Shown here: positions 2,699 through 64,000 of the stretch, one piece after another
How the letters are laid out: each line of letters starts with the position of its first letter
Numbering within the stretch: the first letter of the stretch is position 1
Assembly (NCBI GenBank): GCA_949751835.1
Contig: CATKHK010000084.1
Span: forward strand, 62,001 to 126,000
DNA: 64,000 nucleotides
Direction: 5' to 3'
Source: Blepharisma japonicum
Taxonomy: Eukaryota > Ciliophora > Heterotrichea > Heterotrichida > Blepharismidae
Notes under the pieces: generated by a model
What the model was told of the DNA's origin: nothing
Database searches by the model: none
Seen by the model: the letters and a program-made list of their open reading frames with translations, nothing else
Position numbers and translations under genes: made by a program

Positions 2699-3060
2699 GA
2701 CTATACATATACCCATGAATTCATGCAGCTGCAATTTTCTTATGCTTCTTTGCTATTCAAAGTAGAAAACTTTTTCACATTGAAGGCAAGCCTATCATCA
2801 AGCTAAATATGTGAGGGAACAAAAAAATGCATGTGCGAAACAGAATTCTAGAAGTGAAAGGAAGAAACTACAGCAAGGGAGTAAGATTGCTATCTCAAAA
2901 GCTTTTAAGTTTACTAAATGGCTTTGGGAGTAGCGTCCAATTTGGGCTTGTCTTATGTTTTCAGTATATTTAGTGTTCATAATAGGCTCTCTTTTTTTTT
3001 AGAGCAAAAAAGCCAATAGCAATCTTATTGGTGACTCAACAAGGCTTCACGCCAAAATAG
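2699..3060 (+). pseudogene. Decayed partial copy of the small membrane-protein gene
   Basis: Stretches match the 3' half of the gene at 710-1357: 2703-2760 resembles 1108-1160, 2885-2930 resembles the segment around 1150-1195, and 2940-3060 resembles 1220-1360, including the terminal TTGGTGACTCA segment and the shared flank TAGCTAAAATTAATTAAG. About 125 bases between the first two blocks have no counterpart, and several frameshifts destroy the frame. No start codon or 5' half is recognisable. The match continues straight into the downstream flank and the second CNNM gene, so the relic arose with that gene in one segmental duplication and then lost its own coding capacity. Confidence 0.75.
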
Positions 3061-4315: not shown

Positions 4316-4433
4316 AATAGCAAGTATTTTCGGTTGAAGTAATTCATAAACAATATGAAATTCTAAGAAATATAAATTCATATGTTCTTATTCACATAAA
4401 ATATATAAAAATTAATTTCCTTAATAATTCTAA

Positions 4434-7400
4434 TTATCCTTGAAATCTTCTAACAACTCCAGCTTGCTCTGCTTCTCCTTTTTTAGCAAAATCATTAAAT
4501 ATCTGTTCTAATGAGCTTTGAGCTAATGCATATTCTGTGATTCTTAGCCTTTCTTTATTTGTCTCTACTATAGAAAAAAAATACCCAATTGATTTTTGGG
4601 CTTCTTTTGAAATCTTAAATTTATACAGGGACGAAAAGTGTTCCATTATTTCGACCTTTTTGAATTCGCTTTTAAGTCAATAATAAATTTTATCTCCCAT
4701 TTCTTCAATAATAGCCCAAGATACTAAAGTATCTCTATGAACAGCTTCATCATTTTTTAACTGTTGGTATAAAGAAGAACCTGCCCCTTTTTCTTGAATT
4801 TCGGCATATAACGATCTTTGCCCTAGCAAGTTTAAGCATTCTTCGACTTGATCCTTTTTGACTAAAGGAGCCCCTTTTAGCACTCTATCTAAAATCTTCC
4901 CTTTATCAGCCATTTCATAAGTACTTGGCACGTGGACTTTTGCTTCAAATTCATACCGGTCCCCATATTTACTTTTAATCCAAGTAGCCGTTCCTAGACA
5001 TCTAAGTCTCCCAGCAACCATAATTGCCATACGGTCGCTTAAAGCCTCTGCTTCTTCCATACTATGCGTCGTCAAAATTACTGACGAATTTTTACTTTTT
5101 ATATTCCCTATTACTTTTCACATTTTTTTCCTGGTTTCTGGGTCCATCCCTGCAGAAGGTTCATCTAAAAACACAACTGCAGGGTTTCCAATCAGTGCCA
5201 TAGCTACTGATAATTTTCTTTTATTTCCTCCTGAATACGTTCCAGCCTGCTGATCTGCATATTGTCTTAAATCCATTTGGTCTATCATTTCTTCTACCAG
5301 TGCTTCTCTTCTATCTCTAGGTATCCCTTTAATATCACAGTAAAGCCTTAAATGTTCCTTAGAAGTCAATAAGTCTGATATAGCATCAAACTGAGGACAA
5401 TACCCTATAAGTTCTCTGGCTCGATCTAGGTCTTTTGTTACGCTGTTTCCACATATAAATGCTTCCCCTTGAGTTGGCGCAATTTCTCCAGTCAGCATTT
5501 TGAAAGTCGTAGTTTTTCCAGCTCCATTTACCCCTAAAAATGCAAAACATTCTTGGTGATTTACGTTAAAACTGACATCTTCTACAGCTGCAAAGGCTTC
5601 TTTTATGCCGATTCTGAAGATTTTTCGGATCCCTTTGACATTAACTGGGATATCTTTTGGGTTAGCATTGATAGCAGTTCTGGCTTCTTTTTCGACGTCA
5701 GCGTCAATTTCATAGGAACTTGGCTCAACTTCTGGGGATTTTCAGAATTTTTGGAGAATTTTGGGGTGAGTTTCTAGGTATTCTTGGAGATAGACTAGAA
5801 GCATGTAGATTGGGATCATTAAAAAGTACATTAAAATGTCTCCTCCAGCAGAATTTATATCAAAAGCGTCATATTTAGAGGATTTGCCGTCTAAGCTTGC
5901 ATATAAACTGGAGCTGCCGATATCCATTAAACCATTCCCAAAACAAAAACTTGGGAAAAACCTAAAAAGCCACCTGAGGAAGCGGCCAAGGCCTCTTGTG
6001 GAGTCAAAAATATACAAAACCATAACTACAGCTGGAAAAATACCTCCAGCAACCACATTAAATAAAATAGTCATTATCTGCGCAGTCGGGTAATTTTTAA
6101 AGAAAAAACTGGTAAAATAGGTAAATGGCGCTATAGCTATGCCATAAAAAAACATTAAAACTCAAACAGCTCCATAATTATTTGAAGGCGATGTCAATAT
6201 TTTTACCTGAAAAAGCTGCACTAATAATGCACAAATAATGGCTGGAATAAAATGTTTTAAAGAGTCTCAGCTGAAATTGGCACACCAATAAGAAAATCTT
6301 GATACCCCACTTATCATATGCTGGTGTTTTACGTTAGTTTCTCTTTCCCTTACAATTAATGCTATAATCCCTGTAGGAATGAAGCTATATCCTAGCGAAA
6401 AAACTATAGAAGCAATAAACCCATCCCCAGTGTTAGCCAGGTCTTTTACCTTTTTGGTATATGGCAATGGATAGTTATAAACAGTCACAGTTACTGGGGT
6501 TTTTAAATTTGCAAAAATTTGGTTCGCTAGATTGTTATAATAAACTCCAGTAGCTTGTGATGCTGACTGATTATGGAAAATTATTGCTTCATATTGGTCG
6601 TTAATTGTGTCCATTTTATTAAAATAAAATGAGCCCATTCTATAGTTTTCTGGGTCAGTTCGATGATCAAATAGATATTTGTCAAATCATTGAAGGCTAT
6701 TTGCTGTATTTTTAAAATCTGAGTCTATAAGACTAGAGAAATCGCCATTAACTGTAGCATTTTCTTGAAAATAGTATAAAGGGGATTGAGGTTGGTCATA
6801 AAGAGAAGCTGATAATAGATGCTTTTCAGGAGTCTTAAAACCGTTATTAATCATCATTAAAGCTAATCCTACAAAAACCAGCACAATTGGTATAAAAATT
6901 TCATAGATCAAGCTTTTTTTATCCCTTTTTGACAGCAAAATTCTCTTTCTCAGCAGTGCTTTTAAATGTATCATAAAAAGTGACCCTTGTAGCCTATCTC
7001 GGGACAGCACATAATCAATATCAAGAGAAACCCCTTCATCGATTGGTTTTTTTGAAGATTTTTTTTTTAATTCTTGATCGTCGCCTCTGGCGACCCTTAA
7101 AAAGACTTCTTCAAGAGTAGTAACAGAGACTCCATAGGAGCGTAATTTGAGTCTACGAAGACTAGAATCTAATCGTGAAAAAAATGAGGTAAATTTAGAA
7201 GAGCTTGCCGTTGGAATTTGAAAAGTAATTTCAGCATGGACATTGCTCATTAATACAGCATTTGGGATACAAGAATGAATAAAATCTGTGACTTTTCTTG
7301 TATGAGATTTACCGGCAACTCCTACTTCTTTGACGATAGTTAAATAGTAGCCGACACCATATCTCTTTTTTAAAAAAAGAGAACTGCCCAGACATCTGAG

Positions 7401-9632
7401 TTTTCCTTGAGACATAATTGCGATTCTGTCAGCTAAAATGTCAGCTTCTTCCATATAGTGGGTTGTGAGAATAATTATTCTATTGTTTTTGTTATTTTTA
7501 AGCATATCTCACATCTGTCTTCTTGCAGTCAAATCCATACCTGAAGTTGGCTCATCTAGTAATACAATAGGAGAATCAGCAATTAAAGCAATAGCTAACG
7601 AAAGTCTTCTTTTCATTCCTCCAGACAGAAATTTGGATTTTCTGTCTTTTTTAGCTGTTAAATCGACTTCAGCTAATTTTTCTTTTATTTGATCATTTAT
7701 TAAATTTTTATCTTTCATTCCTTTAAATACAGCAAATAAATATAAATGCTCTTCAGGGGTTAAGTCATTGAACAGCACATTATGCTGAGGGCAAACTCCA
7801 AGATACCTTCTTATTTGGCTTAAATTCCTAGATAAAAACAGATTATTGATTCTCATGTCTCCATAAGTACTTGGTATAAGCCCACACATCATAGAAATGG
7901 TAGTTGTTTTTCCTGCACCATTATGCCCTAATAAAGCAAAAATTTGCCCTTTATAAATATCAAGGCTGAGATCATCAACCACAGTTTTATTTCCAAAAAC
8001 TTTTTTGAAATTCCTAATAATCAAAGCCTGGCCATTTTCCTTCTGTTTTTGCATTAAATCAGTTTCTGGCTCAACATTATCAGGCCATTTAATATCTTCA
8101 TTAAATTCTTCTTCATATTTATTATATCTATTTCTACACCAAAAGGATTTTGTGCATAAAAAATACCAAGGCTTTTTCACACCCCACTCAGTAGGCCATA
8201 CAATATCAAGATAAATCGCCAAAAGGACAAAAATAATTGAATCCACTACTAGAAAAGCTAGACAAGTTCCAAATGAATAATGCTCTACAATAGTGGATGT
8301 ATTTGAGGACTGGACGCCTTCTTGTCCATCTTCTAGCTTAGCTAAAACACTACAGCCTAGTGTAAGTGCGACATTTGGGAAAATAGAGGCAACTGTTTTT
8401 GTACCTTGGTCTCTAGAAGACCCAGTTACTGCGAAACTTATGAAATAGCTGACAAGAAAAGCCATAAGCCCAAGCATAACGGCGCTGCGGGATTTTGAGA
8501 AAAAGGTACTGATAAAGATACTGAAAGTTAAGCAGCTGATACCATAGAGCCAAAATAGTAAAAGCAGCATCCCAGCATTACTGTATTTAAAGAGGCTTAT
8601 TGAAATAAGGCCTCCGATTATAGCGATTAAAGTATAAACTGTAAAATAATAGGTAACTCATGATAGCCAATAAGCCTTATTTGAAAGCCCCATAATCATC
8701 ATCATTTCTTTAATTTTGTATTCTTTTTCTTGTACAATTAGTGACACCATTCTACATACTGGAACCAAATAAGAAATAACTATGAAAAATGGCAACATGG
8801 TAGAAATCATAGTAATAAAATCATCAGATACATAGTCATCATAATACATAGGCACAAATCCAGCTGCTATATATGGACTTGTATTATTTGAATACGTTTT
8901 TAATATATAATTGTCAATATAATTCATTATATGTATAAAATTTGACCCAAAATAATTATACTGGAATGAAGGCATTGGCTTCCTCAAATACTTATCAGTT
9001 GCTTTTGAATAAGTGTCAAAATCAAAAATATTTATATAATTTCCTAATCTTTGGCTTCCACTTGGGTAAGATTCTGTTGCGTTAAACCGAAAGCTGTATT
9101 CTATCTTATAAGGACTAGAACTATAGAATACTACAGCAAAACATATTTTAATAGATCCATTTTCTCCATAGTCGCTGCTTTCTATGTAGTCTTCTAATTC
9201 TTGCTCTGATGAATAAGTAGTAAACTTGTAAGGATTTGCGAAATTTCCAATTTTCTCTTTAAGTGCTGCTATTATTTCAGAGGCAAATGATCCTCGACCT
9301 TCGTTTACAAATGCAATGTTTCAGACTTTTTCTTTAGAGTAATAGTCTCTGTAATAGTTTTCTGAGAGGTCTTTAGGGTTTTCTGTGAATTTTACCGGTG
9401 GATCAAAATATGAGCTGAAATAATTTTGATCATTATCAGATACTGTCATAGCTGATGGAGAAATATAAGATTTAGCAGAGTGCTTGCTAAACCCAACTCC
9501 ATCTCTTATAATTGCTAAAATAATTAAGAGAAACACTGGAAATAAGAACTCACACAGAGATCCACAAAGCCTTCTCTTTCAAAGGATCCAATTTTTGTAC
9601 AACAAAGCTCTATAATGCTGTCATATGGACAT
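4434..9632 (-). CDS. ABCA-type full transporter, array copy 1 (most divergent)
   Basis: A 1732-residue protein, intron-free and open throughout once UGA is Trp; 11 UGA codons split it into many short standard-code pieces. Order: first membrane helix near residues 25-50 after [15 protein letters not shown], a large extracytosolic loop, a five-helix membrane cluster, NBD1 (Walker [10 protein letters not shown] near 569, signature LSGGMKRR near 668, Walker [11 protein letters not shown] near 686), a second membrane domain with its own loop, then NBD2 (GVNGAGKTT near 1366, YSGGNKRK near 1465, [10 protein letters not shown] near 1486). Both ATP sites look intact. ABCA proteins move lipids or amphiphiles across membranes; the substrate cannot be read. 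This copy differs most from the others: the C-terminus ends RRFQG rather than RRYTHG, and its loops are distinct. The RagC gene separates it from the rest of the array. Confidence 0.95.
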
Positions 9633-10451: not shown

Positions 10452-11447
10452 TTAACTAAAACTCTTACTCTCTTCCTCATCTTTTATCCATTTTTCTCTT
10501 GCCTCGAATATTTTTCTTGCCCCTTCCCTAAAGCATTCAATATTATAATCAATTAAATGCTGTCTATCAAAATTATCGGCTTTTACTAAACACACAAGTG
10601 CCAACATATGTTCAATTTCTCTCAAATATAGCGTAAGTCCGCTATCTAATTTAATAATCGCAGTTGATTTTTTGTCAAAAACGCTGTTAATGTTTTCTGA
10701 TTCTACTAGCCTACATAATAATTACCCATAAATACAGGAAACATCAATAACGACGTCAATCATATCAGAACAAAGCTCATAAGAAATTAAATCAACTGGT
10801 GTTGAGTCAGTGGCAATATAAAGCTTTGTGATAACATCGAAGACATAAACTTTGTCAATTCTGCAATGGTTCATAAGAACATCAAGCATATTTTGCAAGT
10901 AACCTACCTGTGGGGTGATTTTCTGGACAACTTTACTTAAAGCTTCATAAATACTGAGATCATAAATACTAGTTAAACTATAACTTGGTTCAGGGATTTC
11001 TCTATCACTAATTTTAAGCCTAACCGAATCAGAAACCTCATTCAGAACTTCCAGCTTTACATCATCGTTCATAAACATATCCCCATCAATTTTATGAATA
11101 AACATTTCAAAAAAACATTGGGAATTCATCCCATGGACTTCTCGCAGAATCGAAACAAACGCATCTAATGAGCGCTCGTATGGCTTATCCTGGGCGTCTA
11201 ACACATATATAACCAATGAGCAGTTTTGAAGGTATTTTCGCTCATTTGCGTTCATTTGAGAAATCTGAAAAGTCCCTGGAAAATCAATTATCGTGAACTT
11301 TGTGTAAGGGTTGTTGTAGACGTTGATTTCTTCTATCCTAGAAGTGCTTTCTGTGAATAAGGTTTCGTTAGGAGAAATCTTTTGGAAAACTACTTTGAGA
11401 ATAGAGGTCTTTCCAGCTCTTTTATTTCCGAGGAGAGCTATGTTCAT
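10452..11447 (-). CDS. RRAGC: RagC/Gtr2-type Ras-like GTPase
   Basis: A 326-residue protein in two exons: 11447-10726, then 10710-10452, after removal of a 15-nt intron at 10711-10725. Exon 1 alone would stop right after CIYG. Removing the intron continues as GLVE... and restores the family's C-terminal roadblock-like half, ending at TAA 10452-10454. GTPase motifs are G1 GNKRAGKTS (residues 7-15), G3 DFPG (55-58) and G4 HKID (118-121). Family hallmarks include KVVFQKISPNETLF, TSIYDLSIYEA, YIATDSTPVDLISYELC and MIDVVIDVSCIYG. RagC/Gtr2 forms a heterodimer with RagA/Gtr1 on lysosome-like membranes and relays amino-acid status to TORC1. A stop codon lies two codons upstream of the ATG, supporting the start. 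The gene sits on the same strand as, and between, two ABC transporter copies, with no obvious functional link. Confidence 0.95.
10711..10725 (-). other. 15-nt spliceosomal mini-intron in RagC gene
   Basis: On the gene strand the sequence is GTAATTATTATGTAG. It begins GT and ends AG, and contains an in-frame stop if retained. Its removal joins CIYG to a frame that matches the RagC family C-terminus, which is the strongest evidence in the window for 15-nt introns. Confidence 0.92.
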
Positions 11448-45121: not shown

Positions 45122-48100
45122 TTATCCTCCATGAGCATACCTTCTTACAAGCCCTGCTTGTACTTCTTCTCCTTTCTTAGCGAAATCATTGAAAATTTGC
45201 TCCAAAGAACTTTGAGATAGTGCATATTCACAGATTTTTAAAGCTTCCTTATTTGTTTCCACAGCTGAGAAAAAGTACCCAATAGATTTTCCTTCTTCCT
45301 TTGAGATCTTGAATTTATAAAGTGAAGAGAAATGCTCAATAATTTCTACCTTCTTGAACTCACTTTTAAGCCACTGATAAATCTTATCGCCTAATTCTTC
45401 AATAATAACCCAGGACACTAAAGAATCTCTTGATATGTATCCATCTACCTTTAATTGCTGATGCAAAGCAGAGCCTGCACCTCTTTCATGAATTTCTTCA
45501 TAAAAGACTTTTGCGTTGAGGATTTCTAAACATTCCAAAATTTGCTTTTCAGAAATGGAGGACTCACCCATGAGAATACGATCCAAACTTACACCTCTAT
45601 CATTCACTTCAAAATGGCTTGGAACTTCAACTTTAGCTTCAAATTCATATCGATCGCCAAATTTGCTTTTAATCCATGTAGCTGTGCCTAGACATCTAAG
45701 CCTTCCTGCGACCATAATTGACATACGATCACTTAAAGCTTCAGCTTCTTCCATAGAGTGAGTCGTTAAAATAACTGAAGAGTTCTTTCTTTTTAGGTTA
45801 CCAATGACTTTCCACATTTTCTTTCTGGTTTCTGGGTCCATTCCTGCTGAAGGCTCATCTAAGAATACTACTTTTGGATTCCCAATTAGCGCTATAGCGA
45901 CTGATAATTTTCTTTTATTACCTCCTGAATAGGTCCCTGCTAAAATATCAGCATAAGGTCTTAAATCCATTTGGTCTATCATTTCTTCACTAAGTGCTTC
46001 TATTCTATCTTTAGGAATCCCCTTTATATCTGAGTAAAGCCTTAAATGCTCTCTTGTTGTGAGCAATTCAGATATAGCATCAAATTGAGGGCAATAGCCA
46101 ATTAACTCTCTCGCCTGGTCCATTTCTGTGTTAAGGTTGTGCCCACAGATATAAGCTTCTCCAGTTGTAGGAGCAATTTCTCCTGTCAACATCTTAAAAG
46201 TTGTCGTTTTTCCAGCACCGTTTACTCCTAAAAACGCAAAACACTCTTGCTGATTCACATTAAAACTCACATCTTCTACAGCAACAAAAGCTTTATTCAT
46301 TCCTTGTCTGAAGATTTTTCTGATATTTCTTACATTAACTTGAACATCTTGAGGGTTTACAGCCAAAGCGCTTTCTGCTTCTCTTTCTACATCATCATCA
46401 GTTTCATATTCTGATGGAGCAACAGTAGGTGTTTTCCAGAATTTTTGGAGCAACTTTTGATGTGTTTCTAGATATTCTTGGACATATACTAAAAATAGAT
46501 AAACAGGAACCATAATTCCAATCATTAAAATGTCAGCTCCAGCCGAATTCAAATCAAATATATTGTACACTCCACTTTCTCCATCCCAGTTTGAGTATGC
46601 AGTTACACTTCCTATATCTAATAATCCGTTTCCATAGCAAAATGATGGGCTTAGCCTAAATATTCATCTAAGTCCTCTGGCAAGATTTCTAGTAGACTCA
46701 AAATAGTATAAAATCAAAATAATTGCTGGGAGAATTCCTCCAGCAATCACATTGAATAAAATAGTAGCAACTTGAGCTGTAGGGTAAGTCTTGAAGAAAA
46801 AACTTGTAAAATAAGTAAATGGGGCAATAGAAACTCCATATAAAAGCATTAAAGCCCATACTGCTGAATATTCGTCATCAGTGCTTGTAAAAGCTGTCAC
46901 ATCAAAAGCTTTTACCATTAAAGTACAAAAAACAGCTGGAATAATATGCTTGACAGAATCCCAAAAGAAATTAGCACACCAATAAGATAATCTTGAAACC
47001 CCACTAATCATGTGTTGATGTTTTACATTTGTTTCTCGCTCTCTTACAATTAAAGCTATAATTCCTGTTGGAATAAAGCTAAATCCTAATGAAAATACTA
47101 CTGAAGCTGCAAATCCGTCTCCAATGCCTTTCAGATCTTGAACCTTTTTAGTATATGGAAGAGGATAGTTATAGACTGTTACTGTTACATCGTACTTGGA
47201 AAGAATTTGATTTGAAAGTTTGTTGTAGTAGACTCCTGTTGCTTGAGGAGCTGTTTGATTGTGGAAAATAATAGCTTGATACTGGTCATTATTAGCATCC
47301 ATATTTGTCAAATAATATGAGCCCATTCTATAGTGATCAGGATCTTTGCGGGTGTCAAATAAAAATTGATCAAGACCTTCTATAGTGCCATTAATGTTTG
47401 CTGTCTCAGAGCTCTGGTATTGTGACCAAGGTCCAACATTGGCGCCAGGAGGCCAATAGTAAATTGTATCTTGAGGATCTGGGTATGAAGATTCTGTTAG
47501 ATGCTTTTTATTAGTAGGTGGAAAGTCACCTCCTATTTTCATTAGTCCAAGTCCAATTATTACCATACAAATGGGTACTAAAATTTCATAGACCAGGCTC
47601 TTAAAGTCTCTCTTTGACCAAAGTACTCTTTTTTTCAATAAAGCCCGAAAATGGCGGAATAATAATGAATCTCTTACTTTATCTCTCGATAAAACAAAAT
47701 CAATTTCTAGCTTAGTTTCTTCATCTTCTTTTTCTTTTTCATAATCTTTTTTAGCAATTTCATTATCATCTCCTCTTGCAACTCTCAAGAAAACCTCTTC
47801 AAGAGTTGTTACAGAAACTCCATAAGACCGTAATTGTAAATTTTTCAAATTATTATCGAGAGCAGTGAAAAATGCTATAAATTTGCTTGAGCTTGAATTT
47901 GGTATTTGGAATGAAATTTCAGCATGGACGTCGCTCATAATTGAAGCTTCAGGAATATAATCTCTTATAAAATCTGTGACTGATTGTGTATGAGATTTAC
48001 TTGCGACTCCGACTTCTTTGACGATAGTTAAATAATAGCCAACTCCATATCTTTTTTTCAAGAAAAGAGAACTGCCAAGACATCTGAGTTTTCCATGAGA

Positions 48101-50320
48101 CATAATTGCGATTCTATCAGCTAAAACGTCAGCTTCTTCCATATAGTGGGTTGTGAGAATGATGATTCTATTATTTTTGTTGTTTTTAAGCATATCCCAC
48201 ATCTGTCTTCTTGCTGTAAGATCCATACCAGCAGTCGGTTCATCTAATAGTATAATAGGTGAATCTGCTATCAAAGCCATCGCTAATGATAATTTTCGTT
48301 TCATACCTCCTGATAAAAACTTCGTTCGCTTATCTTTTTTATCCATTAAATCAACTTCTGTTAGTTTTTCTTTTATTTGCTTGTAAATTTCTTCCTTATC
48401 CTGCATTCCTTTGAAAATAGCGAAGAGATATAAATGCTCTTCTGGTGTCAAATCATTAAACAGCACATTGTGCTGAGGGCAGACTCCAAGGGATCTTCTC
48501 ATTTGGTCAAGATGAGTTGACAAATACATGTCATTTAGCTTCATATCTCCATAAGTAGTCTCTATAAGTCCACACATCATTGAAATTGTTGTAGTTTTTC
48601 CTGCTCCATTATGCCCTAATAGTGCAAAAATTTGTCCTTTATAAATATCTAAGCTTATATCCTCAACTGCTACTTTATTTCCAAAAACTTTTTTAAAGTT
48701 CCTTATAAGTAAAGCGTTTCCATTTTCTTTCTGTTTCTCCAAGTCTTCTTCAACTTTTTCTACATTATCCCCCCATTTGATGTCCTGAGTAAATAAATTT
48801 TCAAGTGCGCTCTGTTTGCTCTTGAACCAAAATGATTTTGTAAATAAAAAGTACCAAGGTCTTTTAACCCCCCATTCAGTAGGCCAAACTTGATCAAGAT
48901 AAACTGCCAAAATAGCAAAAATTCCTGAGTCAATTATTAGAAAATATATGCATGTACCAAAGCTATAGTGGTAAACCTCTTCATCGATATTATCACTTTG
49001 GACTCCGATTTGGCCATTTTCCATCTGCATCAGAACATCACAGCCTAAAGTCATAGCAATATTAGGCAATAGCGATGAAGCATTTTTACTTTCTTCGTCT
49101 AGAGTGTGATCGGTGACTGCAAAACTTATGAAGTATGTTATAAGAAAAGCCATAAGGCCTAGCATTACAGCGCTACGGGACTTAGAAAAGAGCATACTAA
49201 TAAATATGCTGAAAGTCATGCAGCTGATCCCATATAGCCAATAAAATACAAACATGATGCCTGGGTCGCTATATTTGAAAAGGATCATTGAAATGAGAGA
49301 ACCAGCTCCTGCTATAACAGTATATACAGTGAAGTAGTAAGTAATCCATGAAAGCCAGTAAGCTTTATTGGAAAGCCCCATAATCATCATCATTTCTTTT
49401 ATTTTGTACTCTTTTTCTTGTACTATCATAGATAGCATTCTGCAGACAGGCACCAAGTAAGAAATTACAAGGAAAAATGGCAAAGTACCTGAAATCGCAT
49501 TGATGAAATTATCTTTAGTATACTTATCATAATACATAGGCACAAAACCAGCTGCGATATAAGCATTTTGATTAGAGGAAACATCTTGAAGAATGATATT
49601 GTCTATATAGTTCATCATATGGATAAAGTTGGAGCCAATGTACTGATATTGAAACGAAGGCTTTGGCTCTTTATAATATTTATTAATATTTTGGTTGTCT
49701 AGGAAATCAAATATGTCGATTCAATCTCCAAGGCCGCTTCCATCTGAACTATATGAGTCAGTAGTATTGAACCTGAAACTGTAATTAATATTTTTGGAGT
49801 CTTTGCTGTAAAAGACCACTGCAAAACAAATTTTGCTATGCTTGCCATAGCCACTTTTCTTTATGTAATCTTCTAAGTCGTTCTCAGAATCATAACGCTC
49901 TACTACATAAGGGAACCCAGTGTCGTTCCCTTCAGCTTTTATTCTATCTGTCAGCTTATTTATGATGGTTTCTGAATAAGGGTCATTGTGCTCATTTATG
50001 AAGACTATCCTCCATCTTTCATCTTTATCAAAGTAATCCCTATAGTAATTTTCATGACCTTTTGGAAAGTCTGGAATTTTGACAATAGGATCGAAATATT
50101 GGCCAAAATAGTTGTTACCATCATAGGAGACGGTCATTGCTGACTCTTCAAGGTAAGATGACTTTCCATGATCTGTATATTTGATTGCACTTCTTAAAAT
50201 GGCTAAGACCAGTAATAAGGCGATAGGAAATAGCCATTCACAAATGGAGCCGAACATTTTTCGTTTCCATAGGATCCAGTTCTTGTATAGAAGCGCTCGA
50301 TAGTGTTGCCAGAGAGACAT
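45122..50320 (-). CDS. ABCA-type full transporter, array copy 7 (right end of array)
   Basis: A 1732-residue protein from ATG 50318-50320 to TAA 45122-45124, with two UGA-Trp codons. The N-terminus is [15 protein letters not shown] then KRKMFGS. Both NBDs are complete, but with copy-specific changes: NBD1 Walker B reads IILLDEPTAGMD (Ala for Ser), the NBD2 helical region has [20 protein letters not shown] where others have [12 protein letters not shown]...RQYAD, and HREHL-type sequence becomes TTREHLRL. The membrane part also carries VFYWLYGIS where others have LFFWLYG. The C-terminus is RRYAHGG. These are substitutions in an otherwise intact frame, so it is probably active with slightly altered properties. 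It is the pair mate of copy 6. Confidence 0.96.
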
Positions 50321-51800: not shown

Positions 51801-52234
51801 TTAAAAATAAATAATGATTTTATGGCATGTAAACTAAATTCATTTTAACTCTTGCTTAATAATCTATTTTTAAAAACTAATATACTGAGAATATTAAATA
51901 ATGAATTTTATAGCATTATCGTATGAGAACTCATCAATTTATATTTAAAATTTTTATCTTATTATATTTTTCTTTATATAAATTGTAATATCATTATTTA
52001 TTATCAGATTTCAAAAATGAACACATCTGAAAAAATCCCTAAATATCATTTAATTTTTTATCACAACCGCTTATCATTTCATGTCACCCCCATTATGCCC
52101 CATATCTCTTCTAATCTTCTCACACAGAATATTCTGATAAGAAACTCCAATTTTAAATACCACTTTTTAGTCATTTTTCGTCAAAATTCTTCAATGAATG
52201 GTCTAATTTTATCTGAAAAATGGTTATAATTTTT

Positions 52235-54202
52235 ATGCTGAGTAAACCTTCTCTTAACGGCGAAGAAATAGAGGAGCTAGAAAAAGAGCTCAAGGAAAAC
52301 CCTAATAATATTGGTGCTTTAAGTGAGCTTGCCCAATGGTGTGCAAGTCATGGCGATTATACATCAGCTTGCCAGCATTATGAAAAAATCGTCAGGGTTG
52401 ATGACCAAAATGGAAAAGCCTGGACAGCTTTAGGCCACTGTTATTTGCTCAAAGGAGACTATCAGAGATGCTTTACTGTCTATCAGACTGCAATCAGAAC
52501 TTGTGAAGACAGCAAAGATCCACAGCTTTGGTACGGGATTGGGCTCCTTTATAGTAAGTTTGATAGTTTTGACCACGCTGAGTCAGCTTTTCAGTCAGTT
52601 TTGCGATATGACTCCAATTTTGATCAAAAGCATGAAGTTTTGTATCGGCTTGGGATTATTTATAAGCACAAAAAAGACTATTCGACAGCTATTAATCATT
52701 TCAGAAATGCAATATATTGTGAGAAAATTTCGCCAGCAAAAAAAATTGACTCGATGTGTAATATAGGAAGCTGTCTTGAGCATGAGAATAAATTTGAAGA
52801 CGCTGTACAAATTTATAAAGAAGCATTAGAGTTAGACCAGAACAGCTTCAAGACAAGAGAGTATCTTGGATTTGCATTGATGAATCAGAAGTTATATGAA
52901 GAAGCGATAGAAATATTGACGCAAGCCTTGGAGTTTTCTAAAGAAAATTGTTTGGAAACGGGAGATATTTATTACCTTATAGGAAGATGCCACTTGGAAA
53001 TGAAAGATTTTGTTGCCGGCCAAGAAGCATTTCAGAAAGCTATATATAAGAATCCAAGTGTGTATATATATTGGACAAGCATAGGGATTTTATATGCATT
53101 AGCAAATCAGCCACAAGATGCTTTTGAGTGTTTTGTAAAAGCCTCAAATATCAATCTAGATAGTGGAGATGTCTGGTTTAATATGGGAATTCTGTATGAG
53201 CAATGCAAACAAAAGCAAGAAGCATGCTTAGCTTACCAGCGATCCTACACATTAAATTCATCAAATACACATGCTATGGAAAGAAAATTAAAATTGCAAT
53301 CAGAAGAAGACTATGAAAATATTCCAAATTTTATTCATTCGAGTTTTGAAATTTCTGAAGTTCCATTTTCAGCAAAGAAAAGTGATAAATTAATAAAGAA
53401 TATTAAGACATTGCCAGATATTACGAAATTTGATGCGAAAATAGATATTGATTCAGGGCAGGCGAAAAACGAAGAAGTTGTAGATGAACAATTAGTAAAA
53501 AATCAAGGAAATGAAGATGAAAAAATAAATCAAGAAAATATTCCAAATATAAATGCGTTAGAGTCAATAATTAAGCCCGAACCACAAAATCTTGCAAGCA
53601 CTCAGCGATTACCTCAGCCTTCTCCTCAAAAGTCAGGGTTCTCGATGCTACCAGCTACTAATGGCACCATCTCCGAAAATTTTCCTAGAGTTCCGATTTC
53701 TCAACCAATTAAAATGCCTCAGCAAACTGAAATAAAGCCATCCTTATTCCAGTCAGCTCCTCCAGAGGTTCAATCACCCTTAATGCCTTCCACTCTCCCA
53801 TTCCAAAACCCTTCAAATTATCAATATCCTGTTTCACATGAAATTCCTTCAGTTCCCCCTCAATACCCAAGGCCTCCGCAAGCATCCCCTCTCCTTCAAA
53901 ATCAAATGAAAATTCCTTATAATCAGCTTAATCAATATCAGCTAGCAGCTATACAAAATTTAATGATGAACCCAATGCTTGCAGCCCAAATGATGTATGC
54001 TATGAACTCCATGTCAGTCATGAACAATATGAAATACATGCCAAATCAGCAGCAGAAGCCAAAAACTGAAGAGCCTCCAAAAGTGAATCAAGAAGAAGAA
54101 CTCGCCAAAGCTTTGGCGAATTTAAATGAAGTTGAGGATACAAAAAAACAGAAGAGAAAGCTTTCATCTGATGATACAGCAACAAAAAAGAGGAAAAGGT
54201 AA
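52235..54202 (+). CDS. TPR protein resembling Cyc8/Ssn6 corepressor
   Basis: A 655-residue protein from ATG 52235 (an ATG five codons earlier at 52220 is possible; 52235 follows TATAATTTTT and is preferred). Residues 5 to about 345 are a run of about nine or ten tetratricopeptide repeats with the usual small and aromatic residues (WTALGHCYLLKGDYQ, WYGIGLLYSKFDSFDHAESAF, VWFNMGILYEQCKQKQEACLAYQ). Then comes a low-complexity Pro/Gln/Met-rich region (about 400-630) and a very basic C-terminus, KKQKRKLSS...KKRKR, a likely nuclear localisation signal. TPR array plus Pro/Gln-rich tail plus nuclear signal is the architecture of Cyc8/Ssn6 (and the TPR half of UTX), which binds Tup1-like WD40 proteins to repress transcription. 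The assignment is by architecture and repeat spacing, not by a unique motif. No introns. Confidence 0.75.
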   Translation: MLSKPSLNGEEIEELEKELKENPNNIGALSELAQWCASHGDYTSACQHYEKIVRVDDQNGKAWTALGHCYLLKGDYQRCFTVYQTAIRTCEDSKDPQLWYGIGLLYSKFDSFDHAESAFQSVLRYDSNFDQKHEVLYRLGIIYKHKKDYSTAINHFRNAIYCEKISPAKKIDSMCNIGSCLEHENKFEDAVQIYKEALELDQNSFKTREYLGFALMNQKLYEEAIEILTQALEFSKENCLETGDIYYLIGRCHLEMKDFVAGQEAFQKAIYKNPSVYIYWTSIGILYALANQPQDAFECFVKASNINLDSGDVWFNMGILYEQCKQKQEACLAYQRSYTLNSSNTHAMERKLKLQSEEDYENIPNFIHSSFEISEVPFSAKKSDKLIKNIKTLPDITKFDAKIDIDSGQAKNEEVVDEQLVKNQGNEDEKINQENIPNINALESIIKPEPQNLASTQRLPQPSPQKSGFSMLPATNGTISENFPRVPISQPIKMPQQTEIKPSLFQSAPPEVQSPLMPSTLPFQNPSNYQYPVSHEIPSVPPQYPRPPQASPLLQNQMKIPYNQLNQYQLAAIQNLMMNPMLAAQMMYAMNSMSVMNNMKYMPNQQQKPKTEEPPKVNQEEELAKALANLNEVEDTKKQKRKLSSDDTATKKRKR

Positions 54203-55155: not shown

Positions 55156-57651
55156 ATGGCTGAGTTTCAAAGCATAAAAAACAACCCAAATAAGCTTCTT
55201 ATTGCAATTGAAGATCAAGAGAGAGAAATAGAAACGCTGAATAAAAAAATTGAAAAAATCAAACAAACTTACAGGATGAGATCTGAACATTTGGAGAGGC
55301 TAGAAAGGAAAACGCACTCTTTAAAAGATGAAAAAAGGCAGCAAGAAGATACAATTTCTGGGCTTTTTCATGATTTAAAGCTGATTTCCTCAGATTTCAA
55401 GCCAGATCATAACATTGAAGTTGAATATGAAAATGCAGTAATCTTAAAATAGACTGAATTTGTGAAAAAAACTCCAAAAGAAGGTATAAAAATGCTAATT
55501 GATGAACTCAATGCTATTGAATCAGCCTTATCCAATGAAAGTTACGTAAAAAGTGTAGAGCTTAAAGAAAAATACACATATTCAGTGGAATTCAGAGGTG
55601 AGAATTGCATGATTAGGACATCAAATCAAAACTATTCTTTTGACGATTTATGCAAGGATGCAGCTGTTTATTTTAATTTACTGCCTGGAGACTGTTTAAT
55701 GAAAGATGAAAGGGGGGTAATCTGGCCAAATCATTCAAGAGTTATTGATGAGTATGAAGGCTCAAAAACAAAGTTAATTTTAGGACTTAAGCATGGAAAA
55801 GTTTATAAAAACCCTGAGGTTTCTCAGATAGATTGAGAAAAAGTAGCTGCTCATTCTTTGCTGGAAGCTCGCATTCGAGAAATGTCTAAATGAGTCGCTA
55901 ATAAAAGCAAATCTGGGACAAAAAGAGGTACAAAACAAGCAAGTGTTATTAGGAGAATTTTTATGTTTTTATTTTATTTAGCATTTTTATTCCAATTACT
56001 ATATATGATCTTCCAATAGTAATTTTTAGATAGCTTATCACTCCAAGACACTTATGAGCTGAATACAGGAATCAATGCAGTTTTCGCCCAAAATAATTTT
56101 CCAGTTGATTGTAATTATCAAAATGGACTAAGCACAACTTATAGTTATATAGTAAAGCCAGATCAATTTTTTTGTTGGGTCGATCAAGTGTTTATTCAAG
56201 GGTTAGATCAAGGAGATGATAATAATTTGTATGTCATAAAGTATAATCAGGTAGGTGCAATAAGATTTAGACAATTAAGAGCGAACACTAAATCATGTTC
56301 TTATATTGATTATGATACAAAGAAGATATATGACATTGGAGAGGGGGAATGTATAGGAGACTACTCATCTAGTCATAAAAGTACTACCTCTTTTGGTAGA
56401 GACTTAGACTCGGCTTTTTATCAAAATTGTTCAAATTACCCAACTAGCGAAGACTGCATATTTTCTAAAGCATTTAAATATTCTGATAATATTCCTTATA
56501 GCTCTAACTTCAAGGGCCAAATATCAGAATATGATGAAACTGGATATTATATTGATTCTTCTGATTATTGAACTGGCATACCTGATGTTGATACAATTTC
56601 TCATTTAAATAGCTTTCTGAAAGAAAATTTATGGATAGATAACCAAACAAGAGCTATTTTTATCAGTTTTACAACTTATAATATTAATTATGATTTTTTT
56701 ACAACTAGTGTGATTTTGATAGAATTTGGGTCCTCTGGGGTCATGATTCCAAGTTCATTTACGAATTCAATATATGTAAGTTATTATAAAAATTCCTGGG
56801 ATGATATGTGATCGTCAGTAGGCTCATTTTTTGAAAAAGTTCCAGAATTGTATTGTTATTCATATAATTTTTTTGCATTATTACCAGTTATTATAAAAAA
56901 ATTTTTTACAAGGAAAACAGAAATTCTTAAAGAAATGTGAATTTATATCGATATAATGCTTTTTCTATTAATTACAGGAATCATGATTATAAGAGTACTG
57001 CTGTATTATGCTTGCAGTGATGTGATAACACATATGATTTCCCATTTCTCTAAAACAGTTATTGATCTTACCTATTCTGCAAGATTGATATCAGTTATGT
57101 GGGCATTTGAAGGCTTTGCTGCTCTATTTGCTTTTATGAAGGTCCTTAATTATTTTAAATTTAATAGTATGACTATGATTTGGGATACTTTAGGAAGAGG
57201 AGCAAAATCAATTTTCGCCTTCATGATTTATTTTATTGTACTACAAGTTTCTTTTTCAATGATGGCATATCAGGTATATGGATATGCTCTATACGATTTT
57301 TCAAAATATATTTTGAGCCAAATTAATATATTTATGATAGATCTTGGGAATCTTAACCTTTACCCAGATATGTCAGAAGTCGAATCTATTTTTACGCCAT
57401 TATTTTTTGTGTTCTATTTTTTCTTTGTGTTTTTTGTGACAAATAATATCTTTATAGCTATTTTAAATGAAGCCTTTGGAGTTATTGTAGAACGCCAAAG
57501 AGAACAAAATGAAAGAGAGCTGATAGGAAAATTAAAAACAAGGGTTATAGATGAACTGAAGTTTTTTTGTGAAAAATGCAAGTATTGCTGCACACATTTT
57601 AAAAAGAAAAAGAAGGTTGAGCAAAGTAAAGCATTTAAAGCATTCACTTAA
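55156..57651 (+). CDS. Polycystin-2-like cation channel with coiled-coil/UBL-like N-terminus
   Basis: An 821-residue protein in three exons (55156-55437, 55453-56018, 56034-57651) with 15-nt introns; UGA is Trp. Residues about 1-80 form a strongly charged coiled coil. Residues about 115-205 look like a compact beta-grasp, ubiquitin-like region (YSFDDLCKDAAVYFNLLPGDCLM), which is inference. A first membrane helix follows near 260. The large extracytosolic polycystin domain contains the family signature WIDNQTRAIFISFTTYN near 483, aligning with the TRAVF.EF..YN motif of PKD proteins. Later helices include VLNYFKFNSMTMIWDTLGRG (S4-S5/S5) and a final S6 (FFVTNNIFIAILNEAF) near 745-760. Polycystin-2-type proteins are Ca2+-permeable TRP-family channels, often ciliary. 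No EF-hand is evident; the C-terminus is short and basic. Confidence 0.88.
55438..55452 (+). other. 15-nt mini-intron 1 of the PKD2-like gene
   Basis: GTAATCTTAAAATAG ends in an in-frame TAG if retained. Removal joins ENA to TEFVKK and preserves the frame. Confidence 0.82.
56019..56033 (+). other. 15-nt mini-intron 2 of the PKD2-like gene
   Basis: GTAATTTTTAGATAG is in phase 2. If retained, TAG TAA stops interrupt the frame. Removal joins the first membrane helix (FLFQLLYMIFQY) to the polycystin domain. Confidence 0.85.
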
Positions 57652-58117
57652 TTTTTAAATATTTTTTAAAAATAATTGCAGAATTGTTCTTCCTACTACT
57701 TAGAGTTTAGTATAAGCCTTTCTATAGTTTTTCTTATATTAATTCAGGAGTCTTGGGTATTCTCTAGTTCATTTGGTTTTTTCATTTTCTTTTAATGAAT
57801 TTTGGAAAATCTTGGAAAATTTGCCCTACACAAATGGAGTTATTTTTGGAATAAATTCAAGATTTCTCTTCATAAATATTTTATATGATTTCTGAACGCT
57901 AGATTTTGAGCATCAGATACTGCTCTTTTATTAGCGCTTTAACTACAGAAATTAATAAAAAAGATTATTGAGTTATATAATTTTAATTGGCTAATCTGAT
58001 AAAAGTATTTATAATGGTCCTATTATCATATGTTAACGCTATATTTGCTCTAACATTTTATTGGATATCAGAATTACTAATAAGGCAACATCCCTTCTTA
58101 ATATTCTTAAATCTGAA
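57652..58117. other. Intergenic, AT-rich
   Basis: About 470 bases without a supported gene. A short ATG frame at about 58016 ends quickly and no mini-intron connects it to the next gene. Confidence 0.45.
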
Positions 58118-58864
58118 ATGTGTTTAATTTCTGGAAAACCCGAAGTCTGTTCTCACCAGCAATGCATCGTGTTTTATCTGGAGCTTGCCCTAAAAAGCAT
58201 AAACTACCAGCAATTGCAGCAATCCCAACAAGAAGCCCGAACAGCATCAATTAATGACTACCAAACCTCTATGATCTGTTCAGCACTAGAAAGCCAAAAT
58301 CAAACCCTTGAAGAAATCATTGCCACAAATAAGAGAGTCCATGCAGGACTAGATGAAATGCTCAGCTCGTTGCAAGTGTGAACTCGCCCACGAGCCACAC
58401 ATCTATGCCAAGAATTCATTGCTGAGGCAGACTATGATCCTGATAAAATATTGGCCCTTCTTACTTCTACCAATACTTTTGAGTACACACTAGACCTGCA
58501 GCATACCTTACCAGCCAGCGTATTCAAAGAAAGAAGATTTTCAATAGCATTAGTCCTAAAAGACAAATATGGATTTCCTGCTTTTTTAAGCACACATCCG
58601 AGGTTTAAAGCTTATCTTTTCACTCAAGATATACCGCCAAGATGCTTGAAGTTAAACATTTCCAGTAAAAAAATATTGAGGGGTACCATAGAGACTGAAA
58701 TTAAAGAAGATGGAATAATTCATTTTGATTCACTGGTCATTAATGAGGTAAGCTCACACTATACAAATGGATGCTTTAATTTAGTTATAGCAAATTTGAC
58801 TTCGAGCTGTATAAAGCCCTTTAAGATTGAAAATCTTTACGTTCGGGCAAGAAAACTTGAATAA
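58118..58864 (+). CDS. Protein of unknown function, helical N-terminus and beta-rich C-terminus
   Basis: A 248-residue protein from the first ATG in frame (58118), ending at TAA 58862-58864. The frame is open a little further upstream (to a stop near 58034) but offers only TTG, so the N-terminus is somewhat uncertain and an unseen first exon is possible. One UGA-Trp lies in the middle (SLQVWTRPRA). Residues about 1-90 are helical and glutamine-rich with paired cysteines and histidine (VCSHQQC). The C-terminal half has alternating hydrophobic strands (FSIALVLKDKYGFPAFLS, CFNLVIANLTSS) suggesting a beta-sandwich. No family recognised. It lies between the two channel genes on the same strand. 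Confidence 0.7.
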
Positions 58865-59365: not shown

Positions 59366-62300
59366 ATGTCAAGCTCAAAAACTGAAAAGCAAAGTGGAAT
59401 TATGTCTTGAATTTTTAGCAATGAGCAAACTAAAACTGTGGTAAGGAAATCCAGAAAGAGAATAAAGCTATCAAAATCTCAGATTAAGCTAAATAAATTG
59501 ATGAATGAAATTACTAATTATATCATCGACAATGCTGAAAATTCAGTCACAGCTTCAAATCCAATCAATTCCATTTGTCTGTCAAGTGACGAATCATTTG
59601 TATATTTCGCAAGCAGCAAAGGTAGCGTGAGTTGCTTCAACTACGATGAATGCAAAATTATGAATGATAGTATTTTACAGATAAACTCTATAAACACTCT
59701 TCTAATAGATCATAGCTCAAATAGAGCTGCCATATGTGGGGAAAGTCCTATACTTAGAATTTATACAGTCCCAGATTTTGAACTGGAATATGAATTTAAA
59801 GGGCATTCTTCAAATTTATCAAAAATTTATTTAAGCAATGGATTTTGCTACTCTGGAGATGTAGGAGGAATTATAAAGAGGATAAATTTATTTGAGCTTA
59901 AACCAGATAACTTTTCTATAACAAATATAGGGAAAATCACTGATTTAGTAGTTACTCGGGATGGTAATTTTCTTTATGTGAGTGGAGATGCTTTTCTTAA
60001 AGTTTATGATATAAGAGCTAAAAAAGAAATAAGCCAGCTGAATAATCATACTGGAATTGTAATTTGTTTAGCTATTGACCAAACATCTGAATTTCTAGCA
60101 TCAGGAGGAGAAGACTGTAATATTTTCTTATGAAAAATCCCTGATAACACTCTTTTTAGAAAGATTGGCCAACATAATGCAATTGTAAGGTCATTAAGCT
60201 TTAGCTATGATGGAATTTATCTTGTTTCAAGCAGCGATGATCTTTTGGTTAAAATATGAGATCTAGATCAAGAAAGAAGAGAGCAAACCTTCGCAGGACA
60301 CAAAGGGATCATAAGAGCTGCTATTTTTTCAGCAAAACGAGACTTTATTTTTTCTGGAGGAGACGACACAATGCTTAAAGTCTGAAAATTCCCTGAATTC
60401 CAAGAGAGTTATTTTTATAAAGCAAATTCAAGCACTGACTATAACTCAGTCACATTTATCCCAGACACAAAAGCTCTGATGTCTTGTGGGACAGATAAAA
60501 TTGTTAGAAGATGAGATAAAAACGGGAATCCTTCAAACGCATTCGCTACACAAGGTTCAGGGATGAAAATATGTATATCACAAGACGAAAGATATGGAGC
60601 TGTAGGAGATGAGCTTGGCATTCTTTATATTTTTAACCCATTTACATTTGAAGTCCATCATAAAATACAAGCACACCGTGGGCTGATTAGAGATTTATGC
60701 TTTTCTCCCAGAGGTGATTATTTAGTCACAGGAGGCGGAGACTCCATAGTCTATATATGAAATGTTGAAGGTACTGAAAATCTCCAACTCAGAGGTCACA
60801 GTCAAAGTATATGATGCCTTTGCATTAGCCATGATGGGAAAAGAATATATTCAGGCAGCAGCGATAAAACAGTCATTGAATGAGAGGCTGAAGCAGCTTG
60901 TGAGAAAAAGATCTTTTATATTCAAGAGCCAGTTAATGCTATTGAAATATCTCAAGATGATAATCTGATAATAACAGGAGGCATGGTTGGTGCTGTAAAA
61001 GTCTGGAATGTCGATGAAGCCTGACTTGAGTCAAAATTTACGGTCCACACAGGGGTTATAACACAAATTGTTGTTCTTCATAGCAATGAAACTATGCTGA
61101 CTGCTGGGACCGATTTTAAGGTTTTTGTGATTTCTTTATTATATCGTGAGGCAGTGACATATTTTTCACACAAATCTCCTATATATTCATTAGTGGTATC
61201 ATCCGATGAATGCTATATTGCATCAGGAGAAAAGCAGCATATAAATTTCCAAGAAAATCCACTTTCTGCTCAGACTATTTCTCTTGCAGGACCTCAAGAA
61301 AAAATTCAGGAATATTTATCATATATGAGAGATGTATTGACCGACAAGCATCCGACCTATGACAACGTGTATGACAATTTTTTAATTTTGCCTCATTATG
61401 TGAATAGTCTTCATATTTATTCCATTTTGAACCTCAAAGAATATATTGCTGGAGCTCTTAGCCATTCTGCAGCTACACTAAAAACAAGTCAAGGGTTTTA
61501 TCCTTTATCTATTGCTTTACTTAAAGAATTTAAAGGATTGAGAGATGAATTCGTTAAATGTTTTTGTGCAGTTGGGAAACATAATCCTTTTATTTTGCAA
61601 ATAGTCGAAAATGACTTGAATTCGATGAACCAGCAGGGATTTGGAGCATTAAATGACCTTTATGAAGTTCTATATCAAGAAACACAAAGGAAAAGCCTAC
61701 CTAAATTTTGTGAGTCTAATGTGGTTTTACCTATAACAAATATTTCTGACAATCCAAGAATCAAAATATCTGATTTTTTCAATGAAAATGACATCAGTAA
61801 CCAAGGGACTTCTATGATATTTAAAGAATCCTATATAAAATTAAATTTCCACATGGGAAGTCGCCAAAGTTTAGATTTCCTTATGAGTTTATCTTTATGT
61901 AAAAACAATGAAGTGTTTAAAACCCCTTTAATTCTTGACGTAATTCGGTATAAATGAGAAACTGCTAGATATCCATTAATGTACCAAGGCTTTATGTATT
62001 ATTCATATTTAGTCACGCTTTCTATCTATACAGCCTGATTCATGAAAAATCGGTCCTTTCAGATCACCCTTTTTATTATGAATTCTCTATTAAACATTTT
62101 CGAGCTGTTTTTAATGGCTGTCTCAGGGAAATATTACTTCACATATATATGAAATTACGTTGACTGGTTTAGAGGCACAATGCTTTTATTATACGAGTAC
62201 ATGGAATGATACAACGTTTTGCCTGAGCTCATGCCTTCAGTTTTCGCTATAGTCACTTTTCTCAGCTGAGCCAGAGGGATTGCATATTTTCGGCTATTTA

Positions 62301-62923
62301 AAACCACACGATATTTCATTAATCTCCTCATAAGTGTGATCAGTGGGATGTCTGGGTACATCGTCTTATTAATTTACTCCACTTTTGCATTTACCTTTAT
62401 ATTTATAGTCCTTGAGAGAGATATGCATATTCCAGATTTAATGCTAAACGTAAGAACCTCATATAGCTTGGTATTCGGAAATTTTGACTTTGAGGGTGAA
62501 ATAATTGAGATTACTGTGGTCACGCTTGGAATTATCATAAATCCTATCATAATGATGACCATTTTAATTTCTATTATTACTGATGTATATGAGCAGGTTC
62601 AAAGTGATTGTTTGTCATCAGATATAAAAGAATTGATTTTTTTGAATATTGAAGTCGAAAATCTGATGTTTTGGAAAAGAAAAAATAAGCATAGGCAGTA
62701 TATACAAGTAGTTAAAGAATATGAAAAAGAAGAAGATTTGTCATGGGAAGGGAAACTTACTCTCCTCAAAAAGTCACTAGAAAAATCACACCATTCGACA
62801 CTCCAATTTTATGGAGCCTTTACTAAAAGGCTTAAAGATAGAGATGAGCTTATGTCTCAAAATGCAAAAAAAGCTCAAAAGATAATTGAGTTGCTTGATA
62901 AAGAAGTAGAAAAAGAAGACTAA
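59366..62923 (+). CDS. WD40-repeat / TRP-like cation channel fusion protein
   Basis: An 1185-residue protein in one uninterrupted frame when UGA is Trp; more than ten UGA codons fall at expected Trp positions, including the WD dipeptide of several blades (VKIWDL, LKVWKF, VKVWNV). The N-terminus is basic. Residues about 60-640 hold WD40 repeats, probably two propellers' worth (for example HTGIVICLAIDQTSEFLASGG, HKGIIRAAIFSAKRDFIFSG). A linker at about 640-860 follows. Residues about 870-1075 form a six-helix channel-like region: an S4-like LSWARGIAYFRLFKTTRYF, an S5 helix, a pore-loop candidate LVFGNFDFEG, and an S6 helix NPIIMMTILISIITDVYEQ. The C-terminus is a charged, probably coiled-coil tail. 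The channel part is TRP-like by eye. Membrane location and protein-regulated gating are inference. Confidence 0.88.
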
Positions 62924-63172: not shown

Positions 63173-64000
63173 ATGGAACCACGGCGGGAAGACGGTAGTG
63201 AATCATCTTCATCAAGAATCCGAACTCAAGGCACCCAAGGCCTTGGGCGGCACGGAATCTCCAATACAGAAGGTTCTCTCGCCCCTCAATTTGTAAATCG
63301 AATGGAGGATGGCACCGATTTTGATCCTGGTGCTTTGCGCTCAGTTCTCTGGGGCACAGATATAAATATCGACGAAATTCAGACCAAATTCAAAGATTTC
63401 CTGTTAAGATTCACTGACTCTGACGAAATGACTGATGGGGAAACTCCTTTCTACATCAAAAGACTGATGGAAAATACAGATACTTCATTCTTAAACCTCG
63501 ACGTAGACTGTGATCATATTTTTCAATTTGACAGAGAGCTTTACCAGCAACTAGTTAATTACCCCTCAGATATTGTCCCACTTTTCGATTTATCAGCAAT
63601 GGAGCTTTATAGAAGCATGCAAGGTGGAAACATAGACGAAGACTACAAAATCCAAGTAAGGACCCATAATTTAAGACATGTCACTGGGATGAGAGAAATG
63701 GGCCCAGACAAAATTGATATGTTAATTGCAGTCAGAGGGATTGTGATTAGGTGCTCAGATATCGTTCCTGATATGAGAGTCGCTGATTTCCGATGTGCAC
63801 AATGTGGAAGACATGAAAAGGTTACCTTAGAAAGAGGAAAAGTGGAAGAGCCTAACTCCTGCCCAAGGTGTTTAGCGAAATATTCATTTGAGCTTATTCA
63901 TAATTTGTCAATATTTTCTGATAAGCAGCATATAAAAATCCAAGAAACACCAGAAAATATTCCTGAAGGAGAAGTCCCTCATACTGTGCATATTTGCTGC
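63173..64000 (+). CDS. MCM4: MCM4 replicative helicase subunit, N-terminal part (truncated by window end)
   Basis: The first 276 codons, open to the window end. After a Ser/Arg-rich flexible tail come LWGTDINIDEIQTKFKDFL and DPG-like N-terminal domain sequence, then QVRTHNLRHVTGMREMGPDK, RGIVIRCSDIVPDMRVADF, a C4 zinc finger (CAQC near residue 207, CPRC near 229), HNLSIFSDKQHIKIQETPE and PEGEVPHTV. This order and wording match MCM4 best among MCM2-7 (the LWGTD start and the CAQC/CPRC finger). MCM4 is part of the hexameric CMG helicase that unwinds DNA in S phase. The AAA+ ATPase half is outside the window. The coding sequence is noticeably less AT-rich than its neighbours, as common for strongly conserved genes. 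Confidence 0.93.
   Translation, partial: MEPRREDGSESSSSRIRTQGTQGLGRHGISNTEGSLAPQFVNRMEDGTDFDPGALRSVLWGTDINIDEIQTKFKDFLLRFTDSDEMTDGETPFYIKRLMENTDTSFLNLDVDCDHIFQFDRELYQQLVNYPSDIVPLFDLSAMELYRSMQGGNIDEDYKIQVRTHNLRHVTGMREMGPDKIDMLIAVRGIVIRCSDIVPDMRVADFRCAQCGRHEKVTLERGKVEEPNSCPRCLAKYSFELIHNLSIFSDKQHIKIQETPENIPEGEVPHTVHICC

Follow-up and report, generated by a model that had tools for sequence, protein, structure and literature searches.

Animals sense heat, cold and touch through TRP channels, which are usually classed by their cytosolic front: ankyrins, TRPM regions or a polycystin domain. The locus described here raises the question of whether a ciliate gene joins a front of another kind to such a channel. 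The original prediction, made from a 64,000-nucleotide stretch of Blepharisma japonicum DNA (the window), was that one frame carries both WD40 repeats and a TRP-like channel. We give a probability of roughly 0.78 to the reading that the product of this gene forms one subunit in a tetrameric, probably non-selective cation channel of the TRP superfamily with a double WD40 propeller at its front. In this layout, two seven-blade propellers and a linker with a probable degenerate ankyrin-like stretch would precede the six-helix pore unit, with an equivalent of the TRP helix and then a helical tail behind it. The predicted features are as follows.

59366-62923, plus strand: whole gene for a putative 1185-aa double-propeller TRP-type channel; UGA read as Trp, introns none seen, colinear with paralog L002
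59546-60400, plus strand: predicted first WD40 beta-propeller, about blades 1-7, residues 61-345; from the WD40 match, repeat matches and 42-residue period, with blades 2 and 3 placed by spacing
60401-61243, plus strand: predicted second WD40 beta-propeller, about blades 8-14, residues 346-626; on the same bases, with blade 9 placed by spacing
61244-61945, plus strand: conserved linker between propellers and membrane, residues 627-860; pN/pS about 0.13, invariant residues
61397-61561, plus strand: probable degenerate ankyrin-like repeat pair, about residues 678-732; linker profile positions 29-83 against ankyrins, Ank_2 in some members
61973-62590, plus strand: predicted TRP-type transmembrane region S1-S6, residues 870-1075; from hydropathy, family profiles and alignment
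62102-62164, plus strand: putative S2-S3 calcium-site positions E913, L916, N930 and D933; from the TRPM8 S2-S3 alignment
62438-62494, plus strand: predicted pore helix and filter, residues 1025-1043; G1038 shared by 32 of the 39 members
62612-62680, plus strand: putative TRP-helix equivalent after S6, residues 1083-1105; from alignment with TRPV3
62738-62920, plus strand: charged heptad-like C-terminal tail, possibly a coiled coil, residues 1125-1185; from its hydrophobic rhythm

Frame translation with UGA as Trp gave a single 1185-codon frame with exact ends, an ATG at 59366 and a TAA at 62921-62923 with a second TAA directly after it. The frame contained 14 in-frame TGA codons, and stops were present throughout the opposite strand. 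At the local base composition, the probability of 1185 codons free of TAA and TAG by chance was about 1e-31; the window is A+T-rich, with a G+C content of 26-37% in 2-kb steps. At eleven of the 14 TGA codons, Trp is the majority residue of the alignment column, present in 20 to 37 of the 39 family members; those at residues 15, 553 and 891 lay outside the Trp-majority columns. The closest paralog in the same genome, L002, was colinear with the window gene at 78% identity and carried TGG at seven of the window TGA positions (residues 298, 383, 465, 506, 553, 864 and 929). The window TGA at 891 is TAT in L002, and the window TGG at 1103 is TGA there. Comparison with L002 gave pN/pS values of 0.236 for the WD40 part, 0.126 for the linker before S1, 0.142 for the transmembrane region, 0.127 for the tail and 0.375 for the N-tail; these ratios are rough because synonymous sites are near saturation. 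The linker value was the lowest of the six segments measured. The gene is constrained and under purifying selection, the N-tail (60 residues) least so. The single frame under UGA as Trp, as originally predicted, is borne out by its exact ends, its 14 TGA codons and its constraint against L002. The accompanying claim that standard annotation would split the gene holds under the standard code only, whereas UGA as Trp is already stated for Blepharisma stoltei in an excerpt of the report on its 41-Mb, 66% A+T somatic genome (PMC9942806).

The same excerpt describes B. stoltei introns as predominantly 15 and 16 bp (PMC9942806). UGA as Trp, the A+T-rich base composition and the 15-nt introns of the neighbouring polycystin gene all indicate Blepharisma as the source. 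In the 39-member family alignment and the comparison with L002, no hidden 15-nt intron was found in the WD40-TRP frame. Family-rare residues occurred only at 23-30, in the N-tail, and at 357, and only two indels, each of a single residue, separated the window protein from L002; hidden 15-nt introns were rejected on these grounds. Trp codons were unevenly used in the window: the WD40-TRP gene has 14 TGA and 4 TGG, and seven large minus-strand frames have 1-11 TGA and 12-27 TGG each. Gene age, or how strongly each gene is expressed, might lie behind this unevenness.

The genome of the same organism (45.2 Mb, 224 contigs) was searched for paralogs. The full-protein search, with 39 of 401 candidates scored, gave 73 matches, and the family set comprised 39 proteins including that of the window, drawn from 38 fetched loci (one locus with two proteins, one of them a shortened frame). 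When the C-terminal halves of three distant members served as queries, 85, 84 and 84 matches were obtained; the 85 merged into 79 loci, and at least four of these (C75, at 134.6 kb, C19, C217 and C91) appear to be remnants, fragments or pieces at contig edges. Forty-two of the 79 loci were fetched; apart from the 39 and the remnant on C75, these were two loci on C54 and C53 (L047 and L048), both with WD40 repeats ahead of the channel. The Pfam WD40 model matched all 37 full-length members scanned, and a local repeat model gave seven matches in L024 and three in the shortened frame, the remaining two members. WD40 repeats are expected in the other 37 family loci, outside the 42 fetched.

These data bear on the possibility that the single frame spans two distinct genes or a transcript that is split. 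The WD40 and channel parts shared a single frame in all 39 family proteins from the first search (one shortened) as well as in L047 and L048; the joint between them was strongly conserved, and no intron-like block was found. Furthermore, distances among the WD40 halves followed those among the channel halves (r 0.72), with none of 1000 label shuffles as high and the best shuffle at 0.18. We regard the two-gene reading as very improbable and rejected it, given the co-inherited halves and the WD40 match in 37 of 37 scanned members. Such shared divergence is as expected if the WD40-channel joint is older than the family expansion. The layout is that of a large paralog family in this genome.

A seven-sequence profile (A4) confirmed no relatives in viral_contigs (90 pattern matches) or genome_contigs (147 pattern matches), a result that says little because neither collection was meant to hold ciliates. 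Within the genome, a family-member remnant lies at about 263-996 of L010, its pieces 63-66% identical to the L009 protein and broken by TAA and TAG; it sits between two open-frame family members, a picture of gene birth and death in the family. The member at L024:24-1718 (minus strand) runs on into a 565-aa tail, which weakly matches an apolipoprotein helix model, under its cut-off.

The N-terminal half of the window protein matched WD40 at E 3.7e-57 (Pfam), and a period of 42 residues (autocorrelation 0.43) extended over residues 61-625. With a repeat model built from the family, the window protein gave 11 repeats; the range over the 39 members was 2 to 15, with a median of 10. Cutting the window sequence at the 42-residue period gave 14 blades, and about 14 blades would therefore make two seven-blade propellers, not one; we infer this count, because blades 2, 3 and 9 were unmatched by the repeat model and placed by spacing. 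The predicted WD40 front is thus retained, with its extent corrected from about 580 to about 565 residues and with two propellers rather than one. Two consecutive propellers are also found in tandem-propeller WD40 proteins such as WDR3 and EML, and the WDR3 and EML_2 models scored above their curated cut-offs on the whole window protein; the likeness is one of generic repeat similarity only. We know of no tandem-propeller WD40 protein of the WDR3 or EML type fused to a channel. Naming a propeller partner from the WD40 matches was dropped, the matches being too generic.

Between the propellers and the membrane, P676, H683 and G831 of the linker, and K863 just beyond it, were invariant in 39 of 39 members. 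At E<=1 the Pfam Ank_2 model matched nine of the 39 members, with 9e-4 the best value, and left the window copy unmatched. Three of ten members tested gave ankyrin matches, each under the Pfam cut-off. When the linker profile was compared with the PDB, 112 matches were obtained at E<=10, and Ankyrin-1/2 stood at the top of those listed (6e-12). Among the 60 listed, 32 were named ankyrin or DARPin, a further 25, NOMPC, TRPA1 and HACE1 among them, are ankyrin proteins or designed proteins with ankyrin repeats, and three were non-ankyrin (biglycan, an RNA-binding protein and a yeast protein). NOMPC was matched at 5e-5 and TRPA1 at 0.11. These scores are sums of weak repeat matches, the best single repeat having an independent E of 7 to 9 in the two alignments. 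A degenerate ankyrin-like pair therefore probably remains in the linker, as judged from profile similarity. The idea that WD40 repeats had replaced ankyrin repeats is doubtful as worded, since the linker profile finds mostly ankyrin-repeat proteins.

The channel half of the window protein, taken alone, matched no Pfam family at E<=5 and no NCBIfam model at E<=0.01, and the assignment came from the family. All 50 PDB matches of the transmembrane profile A3 at E<=1e-9 were TRP channels, with TRPM8 best (3e-13), followed by TRPV1, Inactive, TRPM2, TRPV2, TRPV3 and a 'TRP-like ion channel'; Inactive is a fly TRPV. With another family profile, the 60 listed of 270 PDB matches were all TRP or polycystin channels, including PKD2L1 and polycystin-2. 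The NCBI model TIGR00870 (trp) matched 27 of the 39 members at E<=0.01 (best 1.2e-7) and was absent from the window member. Pfam Ion_trans was found in 32 members (E<=0.1, best 8e-12) and PKD_channel in three (E<=0.1). Mean hydropathy over the 39 members peaked at 1.47 to 2.23 for S1, S2, S4, S5 and S6; S3 was weakly hydrophobic (1.12), its position being set by the TRPM8 alignment. These results point to a six-helix unit with a re-entrant pore between S5 and S6, and the family profile makes clear that the predicted channel half belongs to the TRP superfamily. The six-helix TRP-like channel of the original prediction is accordingly upheld at the level of the family, although the window protein alone was unconvincing.

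It might be argued instead that the six-helix part is a non-TRP, voltage-gated-like member (Nav, Cav or CatSper-like) whose TRP match reflects mere shared ancestry. The C-terminal half of the window protein alone did score a bacterial Nav pore (E 0.42, its best PDB match) about level with TRPA1 (E 0.51), and Ion_trans proteins abound in the genome (157 matches). However, the PDB matches of both family profiles and the TIGR00870 matches speak for TRP, conserved arginines in the S4 region (970, 976 and 982) are spaced six apart and not every third, and the alignment of S6 and the segment after it is TRP-like. We consider a non-TRP channel improbable. In the TRP-type channel as we read it, the profile from S5 to the tail matched Inactive best (1.3e-9), then TRPV3. 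A TRP box and TRP helix after S6 occur in most TRP channels, though not all. In the TRPV3 alignment, this helix aligns, E1096 and E1098 match Glu residues of TRPV3, and the position of the TRP-box Trp is D1086, which is Asp in 33 members and Trp in none of the 39. The predicted filter contains G1038 (in 32 of 39 members, the window copy included) and an acid at 1041 in 23 of 39; a Gly after the pore helix is tied to non-selective TRPs in an excerpt of PMC7431192. Hydrophobic residues of the C-terminal tail recur in a heptad-like rhythm: against shuffles, P was 0.007 for the window protein and fell below 0.05 in 19 of 39 members. The rhythm agrees with the predicted coiled-coil tail and is consistent with, not proof of, such a structure.

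The family fits no named TRP subfamily tested, because the defining parts (TRPM regions, ankyrin array, polycystin domain) are missing. TRPM2, TRPM4 and TRPM8 come near it in the best profile match, to TRPM8, and in the calcium-site residues E-Q-N-D common to most members. Unlike TRPM, the family has WD40 propellers in place of TRPM homology regions and lacks the TRP-box Trp, and the window copy lacks the calcium-site Gln. A TRPM N-terminal model did not appear among the Pfam families listed (25 of 75 in the member scan; 25 of 47 for the window protein). TRPM membership was rejected, the N-terminus being WD40 and the linker ankyrin-like. TRPV3 and Inactive are alignable from S5 to the TRP helix, and the linker profile finds NOMPC and TRPA1; in contrast to TRPV, TRPA1 and NOMPC, the family has at most a degenerate ankyrin-like pair, with about 14 WD40 blades in front. 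Membership in the ankyrin-bearing TRPV, TRPA and TRPN groups was rejected for want of an ankyrin array before S1. Polycystins (TRPP) belong to the same superfamily, and family profiles match PKD2L1 and polycystin-2, but the S1-S2 loop of the window family is only a few residues long and holds no large S1-S2 domain; TRPP membership was set aside with the absence of that domain.

The S2 E-x-x-Q and S3 N-x-x-D of the family align on the TRPM8 residues E, Q, N and D. E-Q-N-D was found in 27 of 39 members and Gln at position 916 in 29; the window copy has E-L-N-D, as does its 78% paralog L002. The remaining 12 members comprised ELND (two), VRED (two) and one each of GLND, EIND, EKNG, VRDD, GQNE, EKNE, EKND and a gapped site. 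Among the 27 E-Q-N-D members, position 1096 was E in 24 and D in two; E1096 probably corresponds to the TRPM TRP-helix Glu, as judged from the TRPV3 alignment and from TRPM8. On the family tree, E-Q-N-D occurred to either side of the midpoint root and required eight changes against 10.4 expected (33 of 500 shuffles as low). We read E-Q-N-D as a putative ancestral site with several later losses, one of them represented by the window gene and L002; with only weak clustering on the tree, loss and gain are not firmly told apart. Excerpts of published work give the nvTRPM2 calcium ligands as E893, Q896, N918 and D921, to which a TRP-helix Glu is added as the fifth (PMC8145809), the TRPC4 cation site as E417, Q420, N435 and D438 (PMC6079076), and the calcium-site residues as not conserved in TRPV (PMC7431192). 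A calcium step is doubtful in the window copy, because the site glutamine is replaced by leucine.

The missing Gln, together with a filter and S6 that vary among paralogs, would also suit a membrane scaffold or pseudo-channel, in which the TRP fold is kept without conduction and the propellers do the work. Against this, the transmembrane region of the window copy is well constrained (pN/pS 0.142), and the filter Gly and the acid at 1041 are widely kept, the Gly in the window copy as well. We judge a non-conducting protein unlikely. Under the favoured reading, a conducting TRP-type channel, the propellers would dock the channel to a partner, either the cytoskeleton or a signalling complex. Binding or strain might then pass via the linker and the pre-S1 segment to the S6 gate, and cytosolic calcium may modulate gating in most paralogs, perhaps not in the window copy. 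Four subunits would assemble as a tetramer that conducts cations.

A repertoire of sensory channels within a single cell would fit the large number of paralogs. As a tentative wider proposal, which we hold to be rather doubtful as a whole, these genes could form a ciliate-specific TRP class of about 75 genes per cell. In such a class, a WD40 double propeller placed before a shrinking ankyrin module would be the changeable sensing or docking part, and a calcium site predating the split from animal TRPM would set the gate, giving a large single-cell sensory repertoire. Repeated over dozens of paralogs, a double WD40 front would add another cytosolic-front solution for TRP channels, one that lends itself naturally to testing the coupling between a cytosolic platform and the TRP gate. 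With TRPM-type calcium-site residues spread over a protist family, calcium gating of TRP channels may predate animals. Heterotrich ciliates have long been studied for their contraction, light and touch responses, and the family would give them a defined set of candidate sensors. In searches of open-licence literature, no title on a WD40-TRP fusion appeared among the matches listed; the protein may well be present in public databases under an automatic label. In Chlamydomonas, TRP15 and a WD40 protein occur as separate proteins in an excerpt of PMC5068960.

Several neighbouring genes were also observed in the window. A polycystin-type channel gene (55156-57651, plus strand) is the upstream neighbour of the WD40-TRP gene; it has three internal stops as it is, two or one when either of two 15-base GTA...TAG stretches is removed, and none, with 821 residues, when both 15-nt introns are removed. 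A small frame between the two channel genes (58061-58864) had no Pfam match. Ion_trans (PF00520) formed high-scoring repeat clusters on contigs C16, C71, C95, C26, C51, C159 and C6, among the matches listed of the 157 genome-wide. A TPR-repeat protein is encoded at 52220-54202 (plus strand); at 63173-64000 (plus strand) an MCM helicase subunit begins and then runs off the window. On the minus strand, a tandem pair of CNNM/CBS-domain (magnesium transporter-like) genes occupies 1414-4353, and seven frames in tandem, each about 1730 aa long, occupy 4434-50320, with a RagA/Gtr1-type GTPase gene (10722-11447, minus strand) between two of these large frames. Two of the seven were scanned (4434-9632 and 45122-50320), and both encode ABC transporters of the ABCA type.
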